This document shows positions 26,334-26,918 of a DNA stretch of 37,812 bases, piece after piece. The stretch is from contig CADBIY010000014.1 in NCBI GenBank assembly GCA_902794895.1, positions 1 to 37,812 on the forward strand, in the 5' to 3' direction. The translations under genes were made by a program, and so were the position numbers. This DNA comes from Candidatus Avelusimicrobium vaccinum (lineage in GTDB: Bacteria; Elusimicrobiota; Elusimicrobia; Elusimicrobiales; Elusimicrobiaceae). The notes beneath the pieces were generated by a model. It was not told the origin of the DNA. It did not search any database and saw only the letters and a program-made list of their open reading frames with translations. The stretch's first letter is position 1, and every line of letters starts with the position of its first letter.

Positions 26334-26363
26334 GAAAAGCGGCAATAAAAGTTGCCGCTTTTC
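26334..26363. terminator. Second sibling hairpin, terminator for the 75-residue ORF
   Basis: GAAAAGCGGCAA pairs with TTGCCGCTTTTC around a six-base loop. On the minus strand it comes about 40 bases after the stop of the 75-residue ORF; on the plus strand it ends with CTTTTCTTATTATT. It can act in both directions. Confidence 0.8.
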
Positions 26364-26401: not shown

Positions 26402-26629
26402 TTATTTTGTAACTTCTTTTTGCTGGCGTACACAAATAATTAAATCGTATTTTACTGCTTGTACCCGGTTTTGAACTGCCCGGAATTCATCCCAGATTTC
26501 TATGCTTAAATCATGCAACGAATCGGGCAATTGCTTTTGTAAATCTGTTAATTTTATTTGTAAATCTTGCAGTCCGTCTTCGGCTTCGGCGCACGTCCAT
26601 AGGGCGCGCTGTAAAGGTTGTTTTTTCAT
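26402..26629 (-). CDS. 75-residue protein of unknown function behind the structured RNA
   Basis: I do not recognise this protein. The start at 26629 (MKKQPLQRALWTCAEAEDGL) has GGAGA ten to six bases upstream; a longer frame from 26656 would place the start inside the RNA hairpin. The sequence is rich in Leu, Gln, Asp and Glu with heptad-like spacing (LQDLQIKLTDLQKQL, then VQNRVQAVKYDLIICV), suggesting two or three helices or a short coiled coil. There is no signal peptide or clear membrane segment, and a single Cys near each end. It is preceded by a promoter and a roughly 240-base leader with pseudoknots and followed by a terminator, so it forms its own transcription unit. Confidence 0.65.
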   Translation of the reverse strand: MKKQPLQRALWTCAEAEDGLQDLQIKLTDLQKQLPDSLHDLSIEIWDEFRAVQNRVQAVKYDLIICVRQQKEVTK

Positions 26630-26638
26630 TGGGATTCT

Positions 26639-26869
26639 CCGAAAGATCGGGCTCAAACAAAAACGGCTATTTCATTTGAGCCAAAGACACTAACCCAAAC
26701 AAAACAGCCGTAGTTTGCCACCCATGTGGGTGGCAAACATTCGGTACAAACAGAAACGGGTAATTAGTCCGTTTCCGGTTTATACCTGATTGGCTGCTTT
26801 TGGAGTGTCTTTGTGCTGACTGTCGGCAGCGCTCCGTTTCTTAAACGGTTCCAAAAACAGAAAAATTGT
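26639..26869 (-). ncRNA. Candidate pseudoknotted structured RNA / regulatory leader
   Basis: Reading the minus strand 5' to 3', these helices can be drawn by eye. H1: CTGTTTTTGG (26860-26851) with CCAAAAGCAG (26803-26794), 10 bp including one U-G. Inside it are two hairpins, CCGTTT-AAG-AAACGG (26848-26834) and GCTG...CAGC (26830-26815). C: CAAAGACACT (26813-26804) with AGTGTCTTTG (26691-26682), 10 bp perfect, crossing H1. E: GGTATAAAC/GTTTGTACC (26786-26778, 26751-26743; one U-G) topped by GAAACGG/CCGTTTC. D: GTTTGCCACCC-ACAT-GGGTGGCAAAC split as two 11-base arms (26738-26713). B: ACGGCT/AGCCGT (26711-26706, 26668-26663) and A: GGCTCAAA/TTTGAGCC (26682-26675, 26657-26650), which cross each other. 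A last hairpin CCGA-TCTT-TCGG (26650-26639) covers part of the Shine-Dalgarno sequence. The U-G pairs in H1 and E select the minus strand. I could not match it to tmRNA, RNase P, SRP, or a common riboswitch. Confidence 0.7.
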
Positions 26870-26875
26870 CAATTT

Positions 26876-26884
26876 ATTATACCA
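26876..26884 (-). promoter_or_regulatory. Extended -10 promoter of the structured RNA
   Basis: On the minus strand TGGTATAAT is a perfect extended -10 (TGnTATAAT). It would start transcription near 26869, about nine bases before the first helix of the structured RNA. No good -35 is seen, which is usual with an extended -10. Confidence 0.65.
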
Positions 26885-26918
26885 TAATTCTATTCAGTAC
26901 ATGCCGCCGTAATTTTGA

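Follow-up and report, generated by a model that had tools for sequence, protein, structure and literature searches.

The regulons of cyclic di-GMP (c-di-GMP) and cyclic GMP-AMP (cGAMP) riboswitches place many copies per genome before surface genes, and leader elements before polysaccharide and pilus genes are also known from RfaH, LoaP, and EAR-type systems. Related literature is available for the cGAMP riboswitches (PMC8835794). A further RNA element, the dimerization initiation site (DIS) of human immunodeficiency virus type 1 (HIV-1), forms a kissing loop from a six-nucleotide (nt) palindrome in an apical loop with strictly conserved flanking purines (PMC7357161). Here, an RNA encoded on the minus strand of a 37,812-nt stretch of DNA from Candidatus Avelusimicrobium vaccinum (contig CADBIY010000014.1, hereafter referred to as the window) was analyzed; all features given below lie on this strand. 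The RNA at 26,653–26,870 extends over the full length of covariance model R1 (cmsearch 191.7 bits, model positions 1–217 of 217), which was built from 33 BLAST-gathered sequences. Sequence comparison supports that it is one copy of an undescribed multicopy family of pseudoknotted minus-strand RNA. With a probability of roughly 75%, it is a cis-acting transcription-attenuation leader of a new family, and it probably decides between an early stop of transcription and its continuation into pilus and cell-surface genes.

Folding of the minus strand of positions 26,630–26,890 (261 nt) gave a free energy of −101.6 kcal/mol versus −61.9 ± 4.5 kcal/mol for dinucleotide shuffles (z = −8.8), a value reached by 0 of 200 shuffles. 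The main helices drawn by eye in the original prediction were all found where it had placed them: H1 with 10 bp, the long-range helix C with 9 bp, B, P4, P5, and a hairpin at the 3′ end. That this 3′ hairpin is an intrinsic terminator and that the RNA belongs to a multicopy family had both been missed. G-U cells exceeded A-C cells by far (243 versus 56), which identifies the minus-strand transcript as the functional strand, as had been proposed. The same excess of G-U pairs, together with promoters preceding the element, ruled out a single-stranded (attC-like) DNA site. Comparison of the window with Rfam 15 yielded no family, either at the gathering threshold or with lax E-values (chance-level scores only), bearing out the claim of an undescribed RNA without a match to a known class, and in 20 member loci only tRNA was matched.

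The fold was evaluated in two alignments. For A1, sequences were picked by BLAST sequence similarity and aligned by MAFFT without structure; the structure H1+P2+C+P4+P5+T+P7 paired 90.8% of the cells versus 78.1% after shuffling, with two-sided changes at 49 of 67 pairs and a covariation score of 0.443 (shuffled, 0.215 ± 0.007; slid controls, ≤0.156). The sequences of a second bacterial family (A7, 29 sequences) were picked with R1, whose structure held C and not H1, T, or P7; 93.7% of their cells were paired at a covariation of 0.393 versus 0.168. Two-sided changes in A1 occurred at 6/6 pairs of the P2 hairpin (26,834–26,848), 15/15 of the P4 hairpin (26,743–26,786, apical loop ACUAAUUAC), and 11/12 of the P5 hairpin (26,712–26,740, with a bulged U at its base). 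They also occurred at 6/6 pairs of P7, the upper part of the terminator hairpin (26,675–26,699), and in A7 at 6/7. Helix C, formed by AAAGACACU (26,804–26,812) and AGUGUCUUU (26,683–26,691), covaried at 9/9 pairs in A1, with up to six pair types, and at 10/10 in A7. At the level of sequence, covariation proves C, P2, P4, P5, and P7, and compensatory changes, which the initial reading had proposed to look for among relatives, were present in C, P4, P5, and P7.

The 3′ arm of C lies within the apical loop of the terminator hairpin and is enclosed by P7. C crosses both H1 and T/P7, which lends support to the pseudoknots. Of the two pseudoknots initially assumed, that of C with H1 was retained and is accompanied by that with the 3′ hairpin; helix B is a mutually exclusive alternative to H1 and the terminator, not another crossing partner. 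Helix C is variable and private to each copy: when its arms were combined between copies of the window's genome, a mean of 3.6 of 9 pairs formed, and good pairing was obtained within one RNA only.

The 3′ part of the RNA contains terminator helix T, formed by ACGGCUGUU (26,703–26,711) with AACAGCCGU; P7 extends this helix, and UUUUU comes after it. The terminator was picked by a simple scan of the window (−27.4 kcal/mol, z = −7.4), the 3′ arm AAUAGCCGU plus U-run being located at 26,659–26,671; T is also stable in other members, and the U-run is conserved in the alignments. The 5′ arm of T, in which CGGCUG is invariant in both families, is at the same time the 3′ arm of B. B consists of the CGGCUGUU strand, common with T, and part of the H1 3′ arm (CCAAAAGCAG, 26,794–26,803), which the B 5′ arm (26,791–26,798) overlaps. 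The H1 5′ arm CUGUUUUUGG (26,851–26,860) had 98.8% of its cells paired in A1 and 99.6% in A7. As T, B, and H1 overlap in sequence and exclude one another, they point to a transcription-attenuation switch with terminator T, putative antiterminator B, and anti-antiterminator H1.

We infer the following course of switching and its direction. Transcription would start just upstream, and the nascent RNA would make H1, which hides part of the antiterminator strand; the ACGGCUGUU strand would then be free to form the terminator hairpin T+P7, and transcription would stop at the U-run. If H1 opened, its 3′ arm would pair with CGGCUGUU in helix B, the terminator would be blocked, and RNA polymerase would continue into the gene about 30 nt downstream. 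Helix C, with its copy-specific sequence, may connect the loop of the terminator to the H1 domain of the same RNA. Sensing or assembly is the likely role of the P4–P5 domain, and the palindromic P4 loop probably allows two leader RNAs to dimerize. The balance could be set by a small molecule, for example a second messenger, or by dimerization itself.

Several observations weigh against this reading. H1, B, and T are almost invariant and hence beyond proof by covariation; B pairs in 97.3% of the A1 cells, yet its two-sided changes amount to 0, and in the second family the outer part of B pairs less tightly. One sequence has to serve all three helices, which leaves them little room to vary. A σ70 two-hexamer scan of the window, which gave no promoter, counts against the reading as well. 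In its favor, nested folds of the 33 sequences, which ignore pseudoknots, showed H1 and B at near-equal energy as long as only these two were transcribed (median difference −1.3 kcal/mol); B+C was favored before the T 3′ arm emerges (−6.4 kcal/mol) and H1+T at full length (6.8 kcal/mol), the energy of B+C being distorted by some rows in which C is misaligned. The RNA had been assigned a promoter of its own, and of this claim the extended −10 promoter-like element TGGTATAAT (26,876–26,884) is indeed present, and TATANT hexamers are enriched before H1 in relatives, with peaks across the family at 19–36 nt and 61–78 nt; the second peak suggests that some leaders are longer.

A promoter-like site at the 5′ end and an intrinsic terminator at the 3′ end would also befit a stand-alone small RNA that merely lies upstream of genes. 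Given that only about 30 nt separate the U-run from a start codon on the same strand, and that this arrangement recurs before unrelated genes, we regard such an RNA as improbable. A GGAG-type purine tract was observed within 70 nt upstream of 51 of 216 copies. Upstream of L016, L018, L021, L023, L025, and L027, a small hairpin stands between several of these tracts and the RNA, recalling 5′ mRNA stabilizers.

The family is large. BLASTN revealed additional copies within the window's genome, and of 61 relatives, 24 carried copies, all of them members of the same genus. With R1, the RNA was detected in 63 of 66 genomes of the genus, in numbers from a single copy up to 35 or more; the window's genome has 16. 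Beyond the genus, members were present in one further genus of its family and, elsewhere in the Elusimicrobiota, in several genera of a distant family. Records retrieved by a short DNA pattern and confirmed by R1 belonged, among the titles listed, nearly all to metagenome-assembled genomes (MAGs) of Elusimicrobiaceae, Elusimicrobiales, and other Elusimicrobiota. Among the matches listed, pattern-found MAGs originated from rumen, gut, and termites, and a few records were titled just “uncultured bacterium.” No member was found in 19 genomes with a chance pattern match (18 from other groups), and no credible match in about 595 genomes from two other phyla, where a single 47-base match of 28.9 bits was taken as chance. 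A mobile or viral origin was also considered and rejected: 26 viral contigs matched the short pattern, and none scored as a member. The family has so far been found in one phylum only, the Elusimicrobiota, and searches of the open-licence literature found no report linking Elusimicrobia to such an RNA. The RNA family is large, well supported, and outside Rfam. At one locus (L098/L084, G194:C15:6734–7167), two RNA copies stand in tandem directly upstream of one gene, the start of which resembles that of the EcoRI-type adenine methylase behind L212.

For 207 non-redundant copies, the sequence reached far enough downstream; of these, 113 were followed by a same-strand pilin-like gene with the F-T-x-x-E prepilin motif, and 116 (about 56%) with a wider motif, versus 0 of 192 in the opposite-strand control. 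Counted from where the RNA model ends, the pilin start codon lay a median of 32 nt downstream, and Pfam confirmed the N-methylation motif in example downstream proteins. Of the 16 copies in the window's genome, 8 stand before a pilin-like gene, of which this genome has 62, corresponding to a hypergeometric estimate of 4 × 10−7 (18 draws, assumed 1,350 genes). Seen from the genes, the prepilin N-methylation motif is matched 62 times in this 1.45-Mb genome, and only 8 of these matches lie directly behind an RNA copy. With the leader, there is a concrete candidate mechanism by which uncultured gut bacteria could select among dozens of pilin genes. Other downstream genes were assigned by Pfam to glycosyltransferase families 2, 8, and 9, LicD, a polysaccharide synthesis protein, an EcoRI-type methylase, and a nuclease; lipoproteins and small open reading frames (ORFs) also occur behind RNA copies.

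Pilins, glycosyltransferases, LicD, and polysaccharide synthesis resemble the targets of RfaH, LoaP, and EAR-type systems, which would fit a protein- or RNA polymerase-modifying leader, like the elements that bring about processive antitermination in polysaccharide and pilus operons. Many of the targets here seem to be short genes that stand alone, for example those for pilins, and the conserved terminator, whose alternative helices are in balance, points to a local switch, making a polymerase-modifying leader unlikely. A more specific version of the attenuation reading is a small-molecule riboswitch, in which the P4–P5 junction would bind a metabolite or a second messenger such as c-di-GMP and thereby set the attenuator. 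The high number of copies that a genome carries in front of pilin and surface genes is consistent with it, and GGDEF genes are present in the window's genome. The c-di-GMP-I model (RF01051) had no match in the window or in 66 genomes of the genus in a search run without a working positive control, a weakness of the argument that the RNA could be a replacement class. Against a riboswitch speak the small number of invariant unpaired bases outside the switching strands and the mixed functions of the downstream genes. On the basis of the GGDEF genes and the missing c-di-GMP-I class, a second-messenger riboswitch is possible; for a small-molecule riboswitch in general, we consider the chances somewhat below even.

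The P4 apical loop bears on how the attenuator could be operated. It typically comprises 9 nt, with a six-nt palindrome preceded by two bases and followed by one; in the window, UAAUUA at 26,761–26,766 is the putative homodimer kissing loop. The palindrome varies by copy (UAAUUA, UUAUAA, UCAUGA, UUCGAA, UCUAGA, CUCGAG, UUGCAA, and others), and several types coexist within one genome. A six-nt palindrome was found in 24 of 34 distinct P4 loops of 8–10 nt, compared with 4.0 expected from shuffling (maximum 12 in 1000 shuffles); a looser count gave 32/62 versus 8.0 for P4 and no excess for the P5 loop (10/131 versus 13.2). Loop–loop homodimers would best explain why self-complementarity is kept while the sequence changes. 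Leaders might accordingly homodimerize via P4, and released, terminated leaders might feed back on nascent ones. This dimer control is a tentative proposal, because A/U-rich palindromes would kiss weakly, purine flanks like those of the HIV-1 DIS are mostly absent, and some P4 loops lack the palindrome, including one in the window's genome (L004). Still more speculative is a new class of control RNA in which kissing-loop homodimerization, alone or with a new ligand, would throw the pseudoknotted terminator switch of dozens of genes for pilins and surface proteins in each genome, with helix C keeping each leader's switch private. Two features make a new riboswitch class and RNA-dimer control directly testable: the palindromic loop and the pseudoknot, supported by covariation, in which the terminator loop takes part. 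In L004 (G000:C28:7896–8100), most of the P4 tip is missing along with the palindrome, and a pilin-like gene still follows. Divergent copies of G162 and relatives (L096, L286, L290, L301) have lost the palindrome from the P4 loop (AGCTCGCTACT and similar).

In the window, the RNA lies upstream of a 75-residue ORF (26,402–26,629), as originally noted, whereas the usual downstream gene of the family is a type IV pilin-like gene. The ORF product, putatively under control of the leader, matched no Pfam or NCBIfam family; its homologues (39–40% identity) likewise directly follow other RNA copies. Three members of this family of 70–75-residue proteins (26,402–26,629 of the window; L005:1616–1834; L142) share 19 invariant residues. 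The Shine-Dalgarno sequence GGAG of the ORF is located at 26,637–26,640. The last hairpin had been reported to cover part of it, which holds for the window copy and, as judged by eye, is not a feature of the family; Shine-Dalgarno sequestration was therefore dismissed as the switch. The idea that the crossing helices are alternatives of a switch survives in that exclusive pairings were found, and they are likelier to act via the terminator than via the Shine-Dalgarno sequence. A hairpin formed by AAAAGCGGCAA...TTGCCGCTTTT (26,334–26,362), recognized by eye, is the probable end of the transcription unit.

With the HIV-1 DIS, the RNA shares the six-nt palindrome in an apical loop, here mostly of 9 nt. 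It differs in that the palindrome is A/U-rich and variable in sequence, in that it belongs to a bacterial mRNA leader and not to a viral genome, and in the flanks, where conserved purines are replaced in the commonest loops by a C directly before and after the palindrome. Processive antitermination leaders (EAR, put, ops/RfaH) resemble it in that they precede genes for polysaccharides and pili; unlike these leaders, with their lasting action on RNA polymerase, the element described here ends in its own terminator. The terminator/antiterminator/anti-antiterminator leaders, for example those of the c-di-GMP-I type, have in common with it the 5′ leader position, the helices (here predicted) that exclude one another, the intrinsic terminator, and the many copies before surface genes. 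In contrast to these, the RNA has no Rfam match, is larger, and forms pseudoknots that involve the terminator loop.
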